30,938 nucleotides of DNA, taken from a virus. Of this stretch, positions 2,050-29,061 are shown one piece after another; the first letter of the stretch is position 1, and each line of letters opens with the position of its first letter. The translations under genes were made by a program, and so were the position numbers. A model generated the notes under the pieces. It was not told the DNA's origin. It was given only the letters and a program-made list of their open reading frames with translations, and did no database searches. The stretch spans positions 1 to 30,938 of the IMG/VR virus record IMGVR_UViG_3300009529_000030; one strand, 5' to 3'.

Positions 2050-4158
2050 ATGGAAAACGAAACAATTTCCAAGGCATTAACATATGTCGAGAAGGAACCA
2101 AGTGTTGAAACACTTCGGTATGCCTATGATGAAACAGTAAACGAACTTGAGGCATATTTTGATTTATGCCGACAAAGTTATGATGATCGCCGTAATTGGT
2201 GGCCCGGCAAGAGCCGTGACCACCGTAAGCACGGCGCGGATGCTTTTCCCTGGGAGGGAGCTTCCGATATGGAGAGCCACGTTATTGATGAGCGCATTAC
2301 TCGTCTAGTATCTTTATTTGTAGCATCGCTGAATCGTGCGAATGTTCGTGCGTTTCCAACAGAAGTTAGCGATATTGGTAGAGCAAAGCTAGTATCCAGT
2401 TTTCTCAAGTGGATGGTTAGCTCTGGATATATCCCACGCTTTGCGCGGGAGATGGAACTCGGCGCAAACTACCTGCTTGAGCGAGGTATACTTATCAGCT
2501 ATGTAGGATGGCATCGAGAGGATCGCACATTTCTACAGGAACTCGATCTTCAACAAATTAGCCAAATCGCTCCAGAGATTGCTACACTTATTCAGTCCGG
2601 TGACGAAGATGAGCAACTGGTTAAGTTGATGCAAAGTACATTTAATGGTGTCACAACTCGTAGAGCTAAATCCGCACTTAAAGAATTACGCAAAAAAGGA
2701 AAAGCTAAACTACCTGTTGTGCGCCGACAAATTGACGCACCCGAAGTAAAGACACTTGCACCCGATGGTGATTTCTTTTTCCCATCATATGTCACGGATC
2801 CGCAACGCGCTCCGTATTGCTTCTGGCGCACTTACTTCACACCACAGGAACTAGAAAACAAAATTGCCACCGATGGATGGGATGCGGACTTTGTTGACTA
2901 CGTTATCAAACATTATCGTGGAGTAAACATTGATAGCATCGAGCGCGAGCAAGAAGGTCGCCGATCCACAAGCCTAACCGATAACGCTTACGAAGCTGAC
3001 GAACTGATTGAGCTTGTTTACGGTTATCAACGATTGGTTGATTCAGAGGACAATGCAGAAGGAATCTACTGCACGGTATTCCATCGCCAGTTCAGCGGAA
3101 ACCAAGAAGCTCCCGGCTACGCAAAGTTTGAATTACTAAATGGATACGAGGACTACCCAGTTGTAGTCACCAAGCTGTCCGAGGACAGCAAGCGTCTATA
3201 TGATGCAATGACTATCCCCGATGTTCTTCGTGGAATTCAGAATCAAGTCAAGGTTGAACGCGACTCCCGCGTTGATCGCAACAGCATTGCAACTCTACCT
3301 CCGATACTGCACCCAGTAGGACAGGCTCCAACTGATTGGGGTCCGGGACGTATGATTCCGTATCGCCGTAAGGGAGATCTGGACTTTGCTCCTACTCCGC
3401 CTCCGCCAACTGGATCGATTGAAATCGAAAAGACTTTAGAACAACAAGCCGACAGACTTGTGGGACTTGATGAAACTTCATCAATCAGCGGTATTCGCAA
3501 ACAGTTCCTGGTTGACAAGTTCCTTTCTCACGCTGCTGAAGTAATGTCTATGGCATTTAAATGCTTCCAGCGTTTTGGACCGGACGAAATATTTTTCCGA
3601 GTAACAGGCAACGCTAATCCAATGACGTTCACAAAGGGTGATCCCAACGAGAACTACGACATTATGATTAGCTACGATGTTCTCAACGCGGATCCGCAGT
3701 CCCAAGAAAACAAACTCCAACAGATTGTTTCTTTGACGCAAATGGATCGCAACGGTCGAATCAACATTGATGCACTACTTGATATTGCTGCATCATCGAT
3801 TGATCCAGTTCTAGCTGACAACATTCTACAACCCGCACAAGTCGCTGCTGAACAAATCACTAAATTTGTTACCGATGATCTTGCAAAAATATATTCCGGT
3901 ATGGAAATGCCAGCTAGACCGAATGGCGGTCAGCTTGCGTTGCAAATCATTGATCAGTATGCGCGACAACCCGATATTGCAAAACGACTGGTTGAAGACG
4001 AAGCGTTTGCTGCTCGTCTCCAAAAGTATGCTGGTCAGTATCAGTTTGCTCAACAACAGCAAATCAATGCTACACAGTATGGACAGTATGGAACAACCGC
4101 CGCAGCGGTTGGCAACGTCCAAACTCAACAGTTATCGGGATCCTCTTATGGCGGATAA
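2050..4158 (+). CDS. Portal protein
   Basis: Forms the dodecameric portal ring at the capsid vertex through which DNA enters and leaves. The 702-residue length fits large podovirus-type portals. Recognition rests on the N-terminal region with the FPWEGASDMESHVIDER segment near residues 66-82, typical of this portal group, followed by long helical and wing-like regions and a Gln/Ala/Tyr-rich C-terminal tail (residues about 660-702) that could form the barrel. It sits directly after terL and before the scaffold and capsid genes, the classical order. The ATG has no obvious Shine-Dalgarno sequence, only an AT-rich leader. The last 11 nt overlap the start of the wall-hydrolase gene in another frame, suggesting translational coupling. 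I assign the function from motif memory and gene order, not from a structural comparison. Confidence 0.88.
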   Translation: MENETISKALTYVEKEPSVETLRYAYDETVNELEAYFDLCRQSYDDRRNWWPGKSRDHRKHGADAFPWEGASDMESHVIDERITRLVSLFVASLNRANVRAFPTEVSDIGRAKLVSSFLKWMVSSGYIPRFAREMELGANYLLERGILISYVGWHREDRTFLQELDLQQISQIAPEIATLIQSGDEDEQLVKLMQSTFNGVTTRRAKSALKELRKKGKAKLPVVRRQIDAPEVKTLAPDGDFFFPSYVTDPQRAPYCFWRTYFTPQELENKIATDGWDADFVDYVIKHYRGVNIDSIEREQEGRRSTSLTDNAYEADELIELVYGYQRLVDSEDNAEGIYCTVFHRQFSGNQEAPGYAKFELLNGYEDYPVVVTKLSEDSKRLYDAMTIPDVLRGIQNQVKVERDSRVDRNSIATLPPILHPVGQAPTDWGPGRMIPYRRKGDLDFAPTPPPPTGSIEIEKTLEQQADRLVGLDETSSISGIRKQFLVDKFLSHAAEVMSMAFKCFQRFGPDEIFFRVTGNANPMTFTKGDPNENYDIMISYDVLNADPQSQENKLQQIVSLTQMDRNGRINIDALLDIAASSIDPVLADNILQPAQVAAEQITKFVTDDLAKIYSGMEMPARPNGGQLALQIIDQYARQPDIAKRLVEDEAFAARLQKYAGQYQFAQQQQINATQYGQYGTTAAAVGNVQTQQLSGSSYGG

Positions 4159-16735: not shown

Positions 16736-18115
16736 ATGGGAGGCAAAGGCGGAACTACTATTCAAGCACCAGAAGCTGTTGATCCTGGTCAGGCAATGGG
16801 TGAATACCTGTTCGGACAGGACTTTAGTTCATTTCAGGGCATCACCGATCCGATACTGCAACAGCGTATTCTTGCGGCAGAGAGAGCATATCGTCCCCAA
16901 TACACGGCATTAGAGCTTGCTGATATTGGAACGATGGCTCAAGGACTTGCGGCGAGAGAAAACCCCGAATACCAACGGATACAGGGAGAACTCCAAGCCG
17001 CCCGTGCTGGTGCTGAAATTGCTCAATCTGGTGTGAGCGAAGAAGAGATGCGAGCATCCCTTCAAGCAGAAGCAGATAGGCTTTATCCGCCGACCCCGCG
17101 CCCACTACGAAATATTCGAGAATACCAAGATCTCAATGAAGCAGCTAGAGAGGCTTTCGTTTCGCAGGGTATGATTGCTGGTCAAACCAAAGCAGAAGAA
17201 AGAGCAGCCCAAATAGCACAACTTGAAACGCAACTTGAGGCGATACCGCAAACCCTAGAGGCAACGCCCGGACTGTTTGATCTCCTAGAGGATCAATCCC
17301 GCCGAGCAGGTGCGCTCCAACGCGAACAGCTTGGTCTACAACGCGCAGAGGACGTAGCGGCACTTGAAAGATTTGCACCACAAGTAGTTGAGGCTTATCG
17401 GGGTGCTGATCCATATAGCACACGGCTGGCAGAACTGGCTCAAGCTCAAGCCGAGCGAGCCTACGGTCGGGCAGCAGCACCCATAACCGAAGAAGAACGC
17501 CGTGAGGTTGAGCAATCCGTTCTGGCGAGATCCGGCATCGATCCCATAGCACAGGCTGACCGTTCGGCGGTTGAGATGGCTTTGGGGCGCAGGGGACTGC
17601 GCCAGCAACAAGAACAGTTCGCAGCTGGACTCGGACAAGGAGCTTTTGCACAACAACGCGCACTTGCTGGTGATATCGGTGCTACCATCTTGGGTCGTCC
17701 TTCCGCAGCCATCGGACTAGGTGGGCAAATGCTAGGGCAAGCCCAACAGGGCGCAGCTGGTGCAATGGGTCCACAACTGTTTGATCCAAATGCAGGTGTT
17801 AATCTTGCAATGGCTCAACGCCAAGACGAGATCGGACTTCTCGGCGCACAAGCACAAGCTGATGCCGCACGTAGTGCAGGTATATCTTCTGGTTTAGGTT
17901 CTATTGCTGGTGGTATTCTCTGCTGGGTTGCTCGTGAGGTATACGGAGCGCAGAATCCAAAGTGGGTTCTGTTCCGCAACTGGCTGTTGGTTGATTCGCC
18001 AAGCTGGTTCCGTAATCTCTATATCCGCCACGGTGAACGCTTTGCTAAATTCATTTCCAATAAACCACGACTAAAGAACCTCATCCGCAAATGGATGGAT
18101 ACCAAGATCAAATAA
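16736..18115 (+). CDS. Internal/ejection-type virion protein with C-terminal CWVAREVYG domain
   Basis: A 459-residue protein. The N-terminus MGGKGG is typical of internal virion proteins of this region. Residues about 60-340 are Ala/Gln/Glu-rich helical and coiled coil. A Gly/Ala-rich stretch (about 345-395) leads into a distinct C-terminal domain at residues 396-459 beginning CWVAREVYGAQNPKW, a family I recall at the ends of many phage structural proteins, often as CFVA-x-VYG. This is probably one of the proteins ejected with the DNA to bridge the envelope. The start has an acceptable TAGGAAAA upstream, better than most late genes. Confidence 0.75.
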   Translation: MGGKGGTTIQAPEAVDPGQAMGEYLFGQDFSSFQGITDPILQQRILAAERAYRPQYTALELADIGTMAQGLAARENPEYQRIQGELQAARAGAEIAQSGVSEEEMRASLQAEADRLYPPTPRPLRNIREYQDLNEAAREAFVSQGMIAGQTKAEERAAQIAQLETQLEAIPQTLEATPGLFDLLEDQSRRAGALQREQLGLQRAEDVAALERFAPQVVEAYRGADPYSTRLAELAQAQAERAYGRAAAPITEEERREVEQSVLARSGIDPIAQADRSAVEMALGRRGLRQQQEQFAAGLGQGAFAQQRALAGDIGATILGRPSAAIGLGGQMLGQAQQGAAGAMGPQLFDPNAGVNLAMAQRQDEIGLLGAQAQADAARSAGISSGLGSIAGGILCWVAREVYGAQNPKWVLFRNWLLVDSPSWFRNLYIRHGERFAKFISNKPRLKNLIRKWMDTKIK

Positions 18116-25736: not shown

Positions 25737-26008
25737 AATGAGTTTACTGGTTCGTCATTGAGAACCGCAATCGCTTGGCGCAACTGCGTGTTCGTTTCCA
25801 TCAAATCTCTGTTGATGTTGGTCACGTGATCGATCTTGTCTTGGAGTCTATTGTTCTCAAGCGTTTGGGCCATACATTTTTGATTGGCTCTTCGCAGATC
25901 AAACTTTAGTTTAGTTACCTCGGTGTCCGCAAGGATTAGATCCCTACGGATCGAGGTGATCTCCCTTTCTAGACGATCGTGATAATCGGTATCTTTATTT
26001 ATCCCCAT
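25733..26008 (-). CDS. Coiled-coil protein of unknown function
   Basis: A 91-residue protein that is almost entirely a predicted coiled coil (from about residue 10 to 82, e.g. LEREITSIRRDLILADTEVT and LENNRLQDKIDHVTNINRDL). There is no membrane segment or catalytic motif. It overlaps the downstream endonuclease gene by 4 nt and the upstream membrane-anchored DNA-binding gene by 14 nt, so all three are probably made together. It may be an oligomerising partner. Confidence 0.75.
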   Translation of the reverse strand: MGINKDTDYHDRLEREITSIRRDLILADTEVTKLKFDLRRANQKCMAQTLENNRLQDKIDHVTNINRDLMETNTQLRQAIAVLNDEPVNSL

Positions 26009-26327
26009 TTTTCTTCAGGGTATATCGTCTTACGTGGATCGCCGGAACCGTGCGTCCCAACTTTTCTGCGATAACGTGATCGCGGAATGGAGATTCAAGG
26101 ATCATATTATCCTCTACTTCGGTATATCGGCGGCGTTGAGTAACCTTTGACTTGGTGTGCCTTTGCGCTTGCTCAATATAATCATCGTTGTTCTTGAGAA
26201 GCGTTTCAGCCAGGACTTTCATCATCTCTCTTTCTCGGAGATGTTTCATTATAAAGTGGTAAGCAATTACCACCAGCGTGGAAAACGCCACGGCGAAGAC
26301 TAGTGTCTTAACGATTTCAGTATCCAT
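25995..26327 (-). CDS. Membrane-anchored Myb/SANT-like DNA-binding protein
   Basis: A 110-residue protein with two parts. Residues about 7-27 (KTLVFAVAFSTLVVIAYHFI) are one membrane helix, followed by the positive KHLRERE, which by the positive-inside rule puts the C-terminus in the cytoplasm. Residues 65-107 (QRRRYTEVEDNMILESPFRD followed by HVIAEKLGRTVPAIHVRRYTLKK) are a helix-turn-helix of the kind seen in phage Myb/SANT-like proteins: aromatic-x-ED start and LGRT-x-AI recognition helix. This could tether phage DNA or regulate genes at the membrane. It is the first gene after the tmRNA-like RNA; the upstream AAAGAAAC is a weak ribosome binding site. Confidence 0.78.
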   Translation of the reverse strand: MDTEIVKTLVFAVAFSTLVVIAYHFIMKHLREREMMKVLAETLLKNNDDYIEQAQRHTKSKVTQRRRYTEVEDNMILESPFRDHVIAEKLGRTVPAIHVRRYTLKKNGDK

Positions 26328-26353
26328 ATGTTTCTTTTTTTATTAGTTATTGT

Positions 26354-26419
26354 TGGTGGAGATGGGAGGAGTCGAACCTCCGTCCTTGACCGAAGTCAAG
26401 TCGAGAACCTTTCATCCCC
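26354..26419 (-). ncRNA. tmRNA-like minimal tRNA-like RNA with UUCG-capped stem
   Basis: Reading 5'-3' on the minus strand from 26419: GGGGATG pairs with CATCTCC (26364-26358) as a 7-bp acceptor with a G-U pair at position 3, discriminator A and encoded CCA (26356-26354). The T-arm GGAGG-TTCGACT-CCTCC (26381-26365) abuts the acceptor with exact tRNA geometry. The linker GGAC before the T-arm and the AAAGGTTCTCGA block after the acceptor resemble the conserved ends of tmRNA, not those of a tRNA. Between them, CTTGAC and GTCAAG form a 6-bp stem closed by a TTCG tetraloop (26400-26385), so there is no anticodon loop and no tag-coding region. G3-U70 plus A73 are the alanyl-tRNA synthetase identity elements. 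The 5' 24 nt overlap the end of the preceding ORF. Alternatives are an attP remnant of a host ssrA 3' end or a truncated phage tmRNA. Confidence 0.7.
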
Positions 26420-26599
26420 GGTGATGTCCTCAACGGACAGTATTTCTCCAGTTCCCCCTCGCTTGAGATGAACCAATGGTTCATTTTTTAGTGGGTTCTT
26501 GGAAAGTAATAAACGCACCGCACCTTTATCATCGTGCGCCCACTTAATGGCACTCGTGACAAGTCCCTCTGTGCGGTACGTTATTTTAAATTCTCTCAC
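26396..26599 (-). CDS. 67-residue protein of unknown function overlapping the tmRNA-like RNA
   Basis: Reads MREFKITYRTEGLVTSAIKW and later VHLKRGGTGEILSVEDIT. It looks like a single small alpha/beta domain, and I recall short phage proteins with this layout (ITY strand, helix with W, later ILSVE strand), but no function. The start overlaps the nuclease stop by 4 nt, which supports translation. The last codons (GDERFST and stop) lie within the tmRNA-like RNA, so 5' processing of that RNA would cut this mRNA inside its coding end. Confidence 0.7.
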   Translation of the reverse strand: MREFKITYRTEGLVTSAIKWAHDDKGAVRLLLSKNPLKNEPLVHLKRGGTGEILSVEDITGDERFST

Positions 26600-27354
26600 T
26601 TAATAGGCTGTTTGCACATCCTCTCCTTCCAGTAGAGCTTTGCCAGCTGCTTGGCACAATCGAGGTAATGTTTCTTTGCTTCCTCACTCCACCATTGGTG
26701 ATAATGTTCGGCGGTTTCGGTGCAGATACAGACGGACAAACAGTCCGGAATGTAATCCAGCTTGAGTAAAGTTGCCAGCATCCAACTCTCAACGATGAGT
26801 TGTTTGCAGTCCTTCGGGTAAAAGATCCCCGATCCCTTTGTCTTGCGAGTCTTGTAGTCCGCCAAGAATATCTTGCCGTCCTTCTTGCCAACAAAGTCAA
26901 TGCTTCCGGCGATCTTGAGGCGAGGATGCCCGACAACATATTCAGTCGCCATAAGCTCTATCTCTTCGTTCTTTACCCACTTGACAAATGGTAATGACCA
27001 GTCGTCCCAGGGCGTTGCCTCCTCGGTGTTCTCGCCGATAAGCATCTCTTCGATTCGCTTGTGGACCGCTGTTCCAAACTCGGAACTCGGAATGTCCTCG
27101 CCGGTCCAAGGATGCTTTCGGAATCCGTAAGTCATATCCTTTAGCTCACGCCAATCGAGATCAGAAAGATGATCACTTCTCGCATACTCAACAAGTTTCT
27201 GCGGCACATAGATGGAATCAAGGAAGGAATCCTTGACGCAACTGAGAACGGTCGTCACGGACGGCCAAGCCTTCTTGTGCTTGATCGCTTGTGATGGAGT
27301 CTCGATTTCCGGTAGGAACTTTGGTAGTTTTTCTGCGGTGTAGAAGTGAGCCAT
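26596..27354 (-). CDS. RecB/Cas4-like PD-(D/E)XK exonuclease
   Basis: A 252-residue nuclease. The family pattern is complete: SVTTVLS at the start, EFGTAVHKRIEEML with His98, IAGSIDFVGKK with Asp153, IFLADYKTRK with Asp166-Tyr-Lys168, and QLIVESWML with Gln185 in the motif that follows. No helicase domain or Fe-S Cys cluster is evident. In phages such enzymes chew ends to give single strands for annealing proteins, which suits the ERF gene in the same module. The start ATG is preceded only by an A-rich stretch. It overlaps the next gene by 4 nt (ATGA). Confidence 0.88.
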   Translation of the reverse strand: MAHFYTAEKLPKFLPEIETPSQAIKHKKAWPSVTTVLSCVKDSFLDSIYVPQKLVEYARSDHLSDLDWRELKDMTYGFRKHPWTGEDIPSSEFGTAVHKRIEEMLIGENTEEATPWDDWSLPFVKWVKNEEIELMATEYVVGHPRLKIAGSIDFVGKKDGKIFLADYKTRKTKGSGIFYPKDCKQLIVESWMLATLLKLDYIPDCLSVCICTETAEHYHQWWSEEAKKHYLDCAKQLAKLYWKERMCKQPIK

Positions 27355-27991: not shown

Positions 27992-29059
27992 TTATAATAC
28001 TCTTAGAAGTAAGGTTGTAAAGGCTTTTTCTGCGGTTGCTGGAACTACTCCGTTTCCGCATAGGCGCAATCTGTCCACCCTGTCGGAAGACCCATTAGCT
28101 GTTCCACCCAATCTGGATTGAGCTTGCCTGTCGCCTTCCCGCAATGTCCGGCTACGTCCTCCTCCAAGTTCGACTTGCCCCGATTCGCCAGTTGCTCCCG
28201 ATTCTCGTCCGTGATTGTCGGGTGAACCTTGTTGGCTCTCGGTGTCGCCCACGACTCTTGGGGCTTCCCAATCGTGCTGGGGATTTCCTGGTTTAGAAGG
28301 CCACCGATCTCGTGTGCTTGAACCGCTACATCCAAGGTGTCCATCGAGACTTTTCCGTCCCGAATCCTGCCCCCTGCGTAACCGCCCTTGTGATCCCTCG
28401 CTGATGCCGTGGGCCATATCGGTGGCACTACTTGATCCCGCAGGTTGCTGGACCGTTGTCGCCGACTGGTATGGCTCTCCTTGAATGACTTCGAGATCCC
28501 TGCCTCCAGGTGATCCATCGTGTTCGGAGTAGCCCAAGATAAAGACTCGCTTTCTCTGATGAGGTGCGCCGACTTCACTCGCTGAGAATACTCCTGCCGT
28601 TGCTCGGTAACCCAAGCCTTCCAGTCGTCCGAGGACATACTTGAGAACTGATTCTCCGTCCGCTGTTTTGGCGGAGATGATTCCTTCAACGTTTTCGAGG
28701 AAAACAATTCGAGGTTGGCATTGCCGGATTCCTTCTGCGATGTATGGGAACAAGTGTCGTGGGTCTTCCACGCCTTGGCGAACTCCCGCAGTTGAGAAGG
28801 GTTGACACGGGAATCCTCCAGAGAGGATGTCCACGCATCCACGAAACTTTCCGTAAGGGAAGGTCTTAACGTCCGTGAATATAGGTGCTGCATCCAGCTT
28901 ACCCTCTTCAATCTTTGCAACCAAGTTCGCGATTGGGAATCCTTCCCTCTCCACGTAAGCGATTTCTCGCAGATTTGGGAGAACTCTTTTGAGTCCAAGC
29001 CCGATGCCTTCGTATCCACTACAGAGGCTGAGATGTCTAATTGCTTTGGTATTATCCAC
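27992..29059 (-). CDS. dcm: C5 cytosine DNA methyltransferase
   Basis: A 355-residue enzyme that methylates C5 of cytosine in DNA. Motif I is SLCSGYEGIGLGL (residues 11-23), motif IV GGFPCQPFSTAG (81-92) with catalytic Cys85, motif VI ENVEG (122-126), motif VIII QRKRVF (168-173), and the C-terminal motifs IX-X end in LRLCGNGVVPATAEKAF with GNGV at 335-338. Residues about 175-330, the target-recognition region, are Gly/Ser/Arg/Asp-rich and include the DTESQQGS-type segment usual for phage enzymes. The start is GTG at 29059, sharing one base with an ATG at 29061 of another long frame (ATGTG), both behind AAAAGGAT. It probably protects phage DNA; no partner restriction enzyme is seen. Confidence 0.93.
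   Translation of the reverse strand: MDNTKAIRHLSLCSGYEGIGLGLKRVLPNLREIAYVEREGFPIANLVAKIEEGKLDAAPIFTDVKTFPYGKFRGCVDILSGGFPCQPFSTAGVRQGVEDPRHLFPYIAEGIRQCQPRIVFLENVEGIISAKTADGESVLKYVLGRLEGLGYRATAGVFSASEVGAPHQRKRVFILGYSEHDGSPGGRDLEVIQGEPYQSATTVQQPAGSSSATDMAHGISEGSQGRLRRGQDSGRKSLDGHLGCSGSSTRDRWPSKPGNPQHDWEAPRVVGDTESQQGSPDNHGRESGATGESGQVELGGGRSRTLREGDRQAQSRLGGTANGSSDRVDRLRLCGNGVVPATAEKAFTTLLLRVL
27994..28021 (-). promoter_or_regulatory. Possible sigma70-like promoter before the 41-residue membrane gene
   Basis: On the minus strand, TTTACA, a 16-nt spacer and TATTAT (27999-27994) match 5/6 and 5/6 of the consensus hexamers. The predicted start falls at the ATG at 27987, so the message would be leaderless. 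It lies inside the coding end of the methyltransferase, so chance is possible. Confidence 0.35.
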
Positions 29060-29061
29060 AT
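28045..29061 (-). CDS. Second-frame ORF over the methyltransferase, phage MTase-associated family
   Basis: A 338-codon open frame embedded in the methyltransferase gene. Its C-terminal half carries motifs I know from phage proteins linked to cytosine methylases: DDWKAWVTEQRQEYSQR (residues 145-161), SWATPNTMDH (175-184), IWPTASARDHKGG (215-227), SWATPRANKVHP (270-281) and LNPDWVEQLMGLPTGWTD (314-331). These W-[AP]-T-[PA] units and the LNP-WVE-LMG-P-GWT end are too regular to be a shadow. The ATG at 29061 has the better spacing from AAAAGGAT. The N-terminal 130 residues have no features I can place and may be read only because the methyltransferase needs them. It could be a separate full-length protein, an internal start product, or a frameshift fusion. 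Confidence 0.62.
   Translation of the reverse strand: MWIIPKQLDISASVVDTKASGLDSKEFSQICEKSLTWRGKDSQSRTWLQRLKRVSWMQHLYSRTLRPSLTESFVDAWTSSLEDSRVNPSQLREFAKAWKTHDTCSHTSQKESGNANLELFSSKTLKESSPPKQRTENQFSSMSSDDWKAWVTEQRQEYSQRVKSAHLIRESESLSWATPNTMDHLEAGISKSFKESHTSRRQRSSNLRDQVVPPIWPTASARDHKGGYAGGRIRDGKVSMDTLDVAVQAHEIGGLLNQEIPSTIGKPQESWATPRANKVHPTITDENREQLANRGKSNLEEDVAGHCGKATGKLNPDWVEQLMGLPTGWTDCAYAETE

Follow-up and report, generated by a model that had tools for sequence, protein, structure and literature searches.

Is the 66-nucleotide (nt) element at positions 26,354–26,419 of the virus record IMGVR_UViG_3300009529_000030 an RNA gene, and if so, of what kind and for what use? The window, i.e., the whole stretch of 30,938 nt analyzed here, is an IMG/VR virus contig, and the original prediction, made from its letters, described the element as an alanylatable, tag-less domain similar to transfer-messenger RNA (tmRNA), by which bacteria free stalled ribosomes, that could act as a decoy for SmpB or EF-Tu or as a minimal rescue RNA. 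The element is a tmRNA cut down to its tRNA-like domain (TLD), with both halves of this domain retained. It is encoded on the minus strand (26419→26354), contains neither a tag open reading frame (ORF) nor pseudoknots, and reads GGGGAUG AAAGGUUCUCGA CUUGAC UUCG GUCAAG GAC GGAGG UUCGACU CCUCC CAUCUCC ACCA. Its parts are the following:

26354..26419, minus strand: the whole TLD-only tmRNA, 66 nt (Rfam RF00023, 58.8 bits; at least 163 distinct relatives)
26413..26419, minus strand: 5' strand of the acceptor, GGGGAUG, with G3 at 26417 (paired at 7/7 positions; covariation in relatives at pairs 5 and 6)
26401..26412, minus strand: D region, AAAGGUUCUCGA, without a D-stem, with GG and UCGAC motifs (conserved in distinct relatives)
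26395..26400, minus strand: 5' strand of the capping stem, CUUGAC, a stub of tmRNA helix 2 (compensatory changes in 5/6 pairs; both length classes)
26391..26394, minus strand: UUCG tetraloop in the place of the pseudoknots and tag ORF (sequence; relatives use other loops)
26385..26390, minus strand: 3' strand of the capping stem, GUCAAG, completing a 6-bp stem (covariation in both length classes)
26385-26382, minus strand: GGAC ahead of the T-arm (sequence)
26365..26381, minus strand: T-arm GGAGG-UUCGACU-CCUCC, joined directly to the acceptor (5/5 pairs, two of which covary)
26358..26364, minus strand: 3' strand of the acceptor, CAUCUCC, with U70 at 26360 (U70 invariant in unbiased scans)
26354..26357, minus strand: A73 and encoded CCA (among the matches listed, A73 in 97/97 and CCA in 34/97 distinct relatives)

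All parts named in the original prediction, comprising the 7-bp acceptor with G3·U70, A73, CCA, the T-arm, GGAC and the 6-bp stem capped by UUCG, are present on the minus strand. Overlooked were the tmRNA-type D region with its GG and UCGAC motifs (26401–26412) and the overlap of the RNA with the 3' end of a co-directional ORF of 67 amino acids (aa). The stemless D region, the UCGAC motif and the GGAC preceding the T-arm are hallmarks of complete tmRNAs. The tag frame with its resume codon and the pseudoknots of complete tmRNAs are not present in the element, the strands of the capping stem being separated by UUCG alone. The tmRNA covariance-model search advocated in the original prediction gave an end-to-end match: RF00023 aligns with the TLD at model positions 1–374, with about 310 central positions deleted, at 58.8 bits (E-value 9e-21; cut-off 47 bits), and at 50.2 bits when the search is given just 181 bases. 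Since, in addition, the TLD search pattern has one match in the window versus none in 100 shuffles, a chance origin of the 66-nt TLD is excluded.

Other assignments were considered and rejected. A permuted (two-piece) tmRNA, in which the acceptor piece precedes the coding piece and an intervening segment connects the two, is not supported by RF04321, which scores 25.3 bits, below the cut-off of 47, and the stem is closed by a covalent hairpin. An ordinary tRNA would require a D-stem and an anticodon arm, both of which are missing. ARAGORN reported neither a tmRNA nor a tRNA for the TLD in the window. In single-sequence folding the TLD structure lies only 1.2 kcal/mol above the computed minimum, tertiary contacts not being part of the calculation. 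The minimum-free-energy structure is another fold, with a z-score of only -1.7, and the structural evidence is therefore comparative.

Relatives were collected with patterns, the first of which put no constraint on A73, T-stem pairing or the capping stem and found at least 120 stretches in the viral collection. Together with the window and one contig-edge case, the first scan yields 97 distinct sequences among the matches listed, nearly all of which pair fully in the acceptor (7/7) and the T-stem (5/5). Further scans bring the total to at least 163 distinct TLDs in at least 236 viral loci and at least 189 distinct contexts, many of them on short and related contigs, so that distinct sequences are not the same as independent events. 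The patterns fixed GGAC and part of the T-loop, and those of the first scan and the class A scan also G1–G4 and CUCC, and conservation at these positions has no evidential value. E-values obtained with our home-made model are rough.

The distance between UCGAC and GGAC is bimodal among the at least 163 distinct TLDs. Class A (47 sequences), to which the window RNA belongs, has a distance of 12–19 nt and a plain hairpin; the scan for this class, complete across the whole collection, found 87 stretches. Class B (116 sequences) has a distance of 22–36 nt and, in most members, a small nested hairpin after A-rich bases. An AARNCC..GG motif is present in this nested hairpin in 80 of the 116, among the matches listed (e.g., L069, L076 and L058), and may represent a binding site. 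The capping loop varies among relatives, UUCG being one of several.

The original prediction had also pointed to compensatory changes as a check, and these were found. Across 15 distinct RNAs of class A, 99.3% of the cells of 18 pairs are standard, versus 51–63% in slid controls. In this set, both partners have changed in five of the six pairs of the capping stem and in two pairs each of the acceptor and the T-stem. Over all sequences, nearly every pair type occurs in the six to seven pairs of the capping stem, well above shuffled and slid controls; here the control is weaker for class A than for class B, as the class A 3' strand ends in G runs and some slid values are high. In the D region, neither motif of which was part of the pattern, U precedes CGAC in 96/96 and GG is present in 95/96 distinct relatives of the first scan (among the matches listed). 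This pattern of substitution indicates that the TLD structure is kept under strong selection in many phages. As judged by sequence comparison, the TLD is a common and strongly conserved phage gene overlooked by annotation programs, and annotation based on ARAGORN leaves an entire class of small RNA genes unseen.

The acceptor carries the second line of evidence. Two unbiased scans left it free apart from base 70, which was set to non-U70 in one and to U70 in the other, so that G3·U70 was not built in. The non-U70 scan, complete over the whole collection, found four stretches, none of which is a TLD: one tRNA-Arg(UCU)-like sequence accounts for two of them, and the other two are chance matches. 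The U70 scan found at least 119 stretches; among the matches listed, 81 distinct sequences are TLD-like, and 80 of these have G3, while the exception looks cut or accidental. In Streptomyces phages LuckySocke and BRock, U-A has replaced G-C at acceptor pair 4, while G3·U70 is retained. A73, likewise free in the pattern of the first scan, is present in all 97 distinct relatives listed. G3·U70 with A73 is the identity set of alanyl-tRNA synthetase (AlaRS). Because these bases are invariant and form this set, alanylation is almost certainly selected and the charged form used.

The original prediction knew of no described RNA of this form, but TLD-only tmRNA is a kind already known. The tmRNA of Mycobacterium phage DS6A (tmID 11587), described as "TLD only", contains little beyond the TLD, and a DS6A-like molecule strongly inhibits E. 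coli tmRNA, charged or not, perhaps by SmpB titration, as reported in PMC4131195 and PMC11915505, citing Mao et al. 2009. The likeness of the DS6A and window RNAs is one of description, not of sequence; DS6A is a single phage, whereas the forms reported here are many, occur in other phages and mostly lack a detected integrase. In organelles, CDS-less tmRNAs (without a coding sequence) of about 65 bp are found in two plastids of Mallomonadaceae (PMC4131195, PMC11915505), and the mRNA-like region has disappeared from tmRNAs of jakobid mitochondria (Jacob et al. 2004, as cited in PMC11915505 and PMC3985003). Like the phage TLDs, these keep the TLD without the mRNA-like region, but they stand alone, while the phage RNAs work beside an intact host tmRNA.

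A further parallel was made in the laboratory. According to PMC3929946, the engineered Thermus thermophilus TLD crystallized with SmpB (PDB 2CZJ; Bessho 2007) joins the 5' 25 nt and the 3' 34 nt by UUCG. The window RNA likewise has exactly 25 nt before UUCG, followed by 37 nt. It is a natural phage gene, not a crystallography construct, and represents the natural counterpart of the UUCG-capped TLD built by crystallographers to study SmpB. Full-length or permuted phage tmRNAs (Melnitz, PMC9004378; Streptomyces phage Wakanda) share the TLD, are phage-encoded and are often located among tRNA genes, but have a tag ORF and pseudoknots or consist of two pieces. In the open-licence PMC literature searched, phage TLD-only tmRNA rested on one phage. 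Relative to that literature, and with a survey elsewhere possible, the present analysis adds the breadth of the class, its covariation, an alanine identity that does not vary, the lack of SmpB genes in the phages, and cultured carriers known by name.

The genomic context was considered next to the following neighboring genes:

26396..26599, minus strand: 67-aa ORF (ORF call), its 3' end overlapping the RNA, with the stop codon UGA at 26398-26396 in the capping stem
26596..27354, minus strand: PD-(D/E)XK nuclease gene, upstream (Pfam PF12705; 24 relatives)
25995..26327, minus strand: 110-aa gene, downstream (ORF call)

The record also encodes terminase, major head protein, DnaB-type helicase, ERF recombination protein and endonuclease VII. 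Since the 67-aa stop codon lies inside the RNA, RNase P maturation would leave the 67-aa mRNA non-stop. A similar arrangement is found in Carsonella smpB/ssrA (PMC4131195), where the 3' end of the ORF overlaps the 5' end of the tmRNA and maturation would make the mRNA non-stop; there, however, the gene is smpB and the tmRNA complete, while in the window the gene is an unassigned 67-aa ORF and the RNA is TLD-only. At four loci (the window, L009, L051 and L270) the upstream ORF enters the RNA, always in one and the same phase; except in L270, its stop codon, UGA or UAA, is reached 21 nt into the RNA, within the capping stem. The relative of the window RNA in L270 (4640-4727) measures 88 nt and has a capping stem of greater length; there the upstream ORF is open through the entire RNA.

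The TLD is not bound to these genes. It was not found at relatives of the window PD-(D/E)XK gene, and in L247–L249 a homologue of the 67-aa gene ends at its own stop codon and is followed by a homologue of the downstream gene, the RNA being absent from the junction. Few positions separate the window RNA from its closest relative, in L463, a phage that shares the ERF, endonuclease VII and PD-(D/E)XK genes; there the TLD heads a run of genes behind a terminator-like site, and a promoter scan near it found no site. Comparison of these loci indicates that the TLD changes position relative to genes while its sequence holds. A portal protein gene in L002 (2656-4173) has the TLD (4017-4081) within its 3' end, where it contributes in frame to the C-terminal tail, and TLDs in portal genes also occur in L006, L024, L044, L106, L434, L449, L465 and others, RNA and structural gene using the same bases.

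SmpB is not encoded in 50 TLD records or five cultured Streptomyces phages, nor is a full tmRNA over the cut-off; the former may be fragments, while the five phage records are deposited as complete genomes. No release-factor partner was found in the 50 TLD records, except for one RF-1-like protein. Four bacterial assemblies, one of them of a cultured cyanobacterium, contain a normal tmRNA of about 390 nt and a TLD on another contig. In all four the TLD acceptor and T-arm differ from those of the host tmRNA, with the caveat of contig binning in metagenome-assembled genomes.

What could such an RNA do? The reading we slightly favor, and the most likely one, is that the phage TLD inhibits host trans-translation. 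Host RNase P and 3' nucleases would excise the TLD from the operon transcript, host AlaRS would charge it with alanine, and host SmpB and EF-Tu·GTP would bind Ala-TLD, which would enter stalled ribosomes like tmRNA. As it has no resume codon, the TLD cannot deliver a degradation tag. It would compete with host tmRNA and SmpB, suppressing trans-translation during infection, so that phage proteins and mRNAs would escape tagging and decay. For the 67-aa gene of the window, maturation would in addition mean the loss of its stop codon, tying the output of this gene to rescue efficiency. Several observations weigh against this reading. The invariant alanine identity would be unneeded if SmpB titration sufficed, uncharged RNA also being reported as inhibitory; the ORF overlap occurs in only some relatives, the upstream gene ending before the RNA in L068, L118 and others; and a promoter scan of 25900-27000 found no promoter-like site. 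With the alanine identity invariant, passive titration is less favored than entry into the ribosome or real rescue.

Real rescue is the main rival, which we regard as unlikely. In this case Ala-TLD with host SmpB would enter the stalled ribosome, take over the nascent chain and add one or more alanines, another hydrolase would help to free the ribosome, and the phage would gain cleared ribosomes without protein destruction. The invariant G3·U70 and A73 imply that the charged form is in use, TLD·SmpB supports polyalanine synthesis in vitro without an mRNA template (PMC3929946), and mitochondrial tmRNA without a tag frame is thought to help with incomplete mRNAs (PMC11915505). However, the TLD has neither a resume nor a stop codon, an RF-1-like protein is present in just one of the 50 TLD records, and a similar RNA inhibited E. 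coli tmRNA, as reported in PMC11915505. Tentatively, and with more doubt than confidence, tag-less Ala-TLDs may be seen as a general phage device hijacking host SmpB to gain access to stalled ribosomes, with tag-free capture or alanine addition taking the place of trans-translation; in some phages, including this one, the device would be wired to a gene with an mRNA rendered non-stop by maturation of the TLD, as a switch sensing the rescue state.

A decoy or bait for a tRNA- or tmRNA-directed defense enzyme or RNase, with rescue not its target, would agree with a compact tRNA mimic that recurs across phages, in some within tRNA arrays, but known tRNA-cutting enzymes would find no anticodon arm or tag region, and the invariant alanine identity is left unexplained; we consider this improbable. 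Slightly less credit still is due to a role as processing punctuation, with the tRNA-like fold directing RNase P cutting of polycistronic mRNA. TLDs are embedded in operons, where they overlap or abut upstream ORFs, but G3·U70, A73 and UCGAC are invariant, although to our knowledge neither RNase P nor RNase Z requires them, and the TLD of L463 follows a terminator-like site and leads a series of genes instead of lying between the same ones as in the window.

The original prediction itself named an attP core as the outcome that would undo it, and the element as such a core or a leftover of integration into host ssrA appears very improbable after an integrase search and the comparison with the four host tmRNAs. 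tmRNA genes are often att sites (PMC10865867), and a tyrosine integrase is encoded in six of the 50 TLD records, the nearest about 1 kb off, and in three of 11 further records. However, the 5' half of the TLD, unneeded by an att core, is present and covaries, the TLD relatives in the four assemblies are not identical to the host tmRNA 3' end, and DS6A integrates at a tRNA-Lys gene (PMC10865867). No integrase was found in L463 or the five Streptomyces phages, and the window record has no match to Pfam PF00589, other recombinases not having been searched and the record possibly being a fragment. All three 36–38 kb relatives checked that carry class A TLDs in long contigs (L434, L449 and L458) have a weakly scoring integrase, and lysogeny is possible for them.

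Of the claims in the original prediction, that of an alanylatable tag-less tmRNA-like domain, which could act as a decoy or minimal rescue RNA, has gained the backing of homologues, covariation and the invariance of G3·U70 and A73. At least 163 distinct sequences in two size classes, with invariant alanine identity and cultured carriers, suggest that phages commonly interfere with trans-translation.

The cultured carriers are Streptomyces phages LuckySocke, Shaeky, BRock, Alone3 and pSt2308 (L481, L482, L483, L484 and L485), which have unannotated TLD-like RNAs within tRNA arrays and are laboratory phages in which TLD function can be tested. The LuckySocke copy is at 17977-18057 and that of Shaeky at 42932-43013. 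The Alone3 copy scores under the RF00023 cut-off. For BRock, ARAGORN reports a spurious 626-nt tmRNA with a doubtful tag. Of the cultured-phage matches of the first BLAST search, those fetched are not TLDs but permuted tmRNAs or, in one case, a stretch beside an integrase.

Pattern matches of 80–90 nt on genome contigs are mostly ordinary tmRNA 3' ends with a chance GGGG upstream. Six genome-contig matches passed the TLD filter; five are TLDs, and one (L142) was rejected, having a discriminator G and being tRNA-like. On a contig of Pseudanabaenaceae cyanobacterium LEGE 13415 (L144), the TLD is located near matches to an RNA-binding protein family and RNA 2'-phosphotransferase, which is suggestive of RNA repair. 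Another TLD was found in a single-cell genome, on a contig of Prochlorococcus sp. AG-409-P03 (L225), the assembly of which has no normal tmRNA over the RF00023 cut-off, a model that cyanobacterial permuted forms may escape.

Elsewhere in the window, on the minus strand at 27992-29061, open frames of 355 and 338 aa overlap over the same stretch. The 338-aa frame, the sole one scanned, matches a DNA methyltransferase PHROG, and the relatives L252 and L256 suggest that the other frame may be the real gene.
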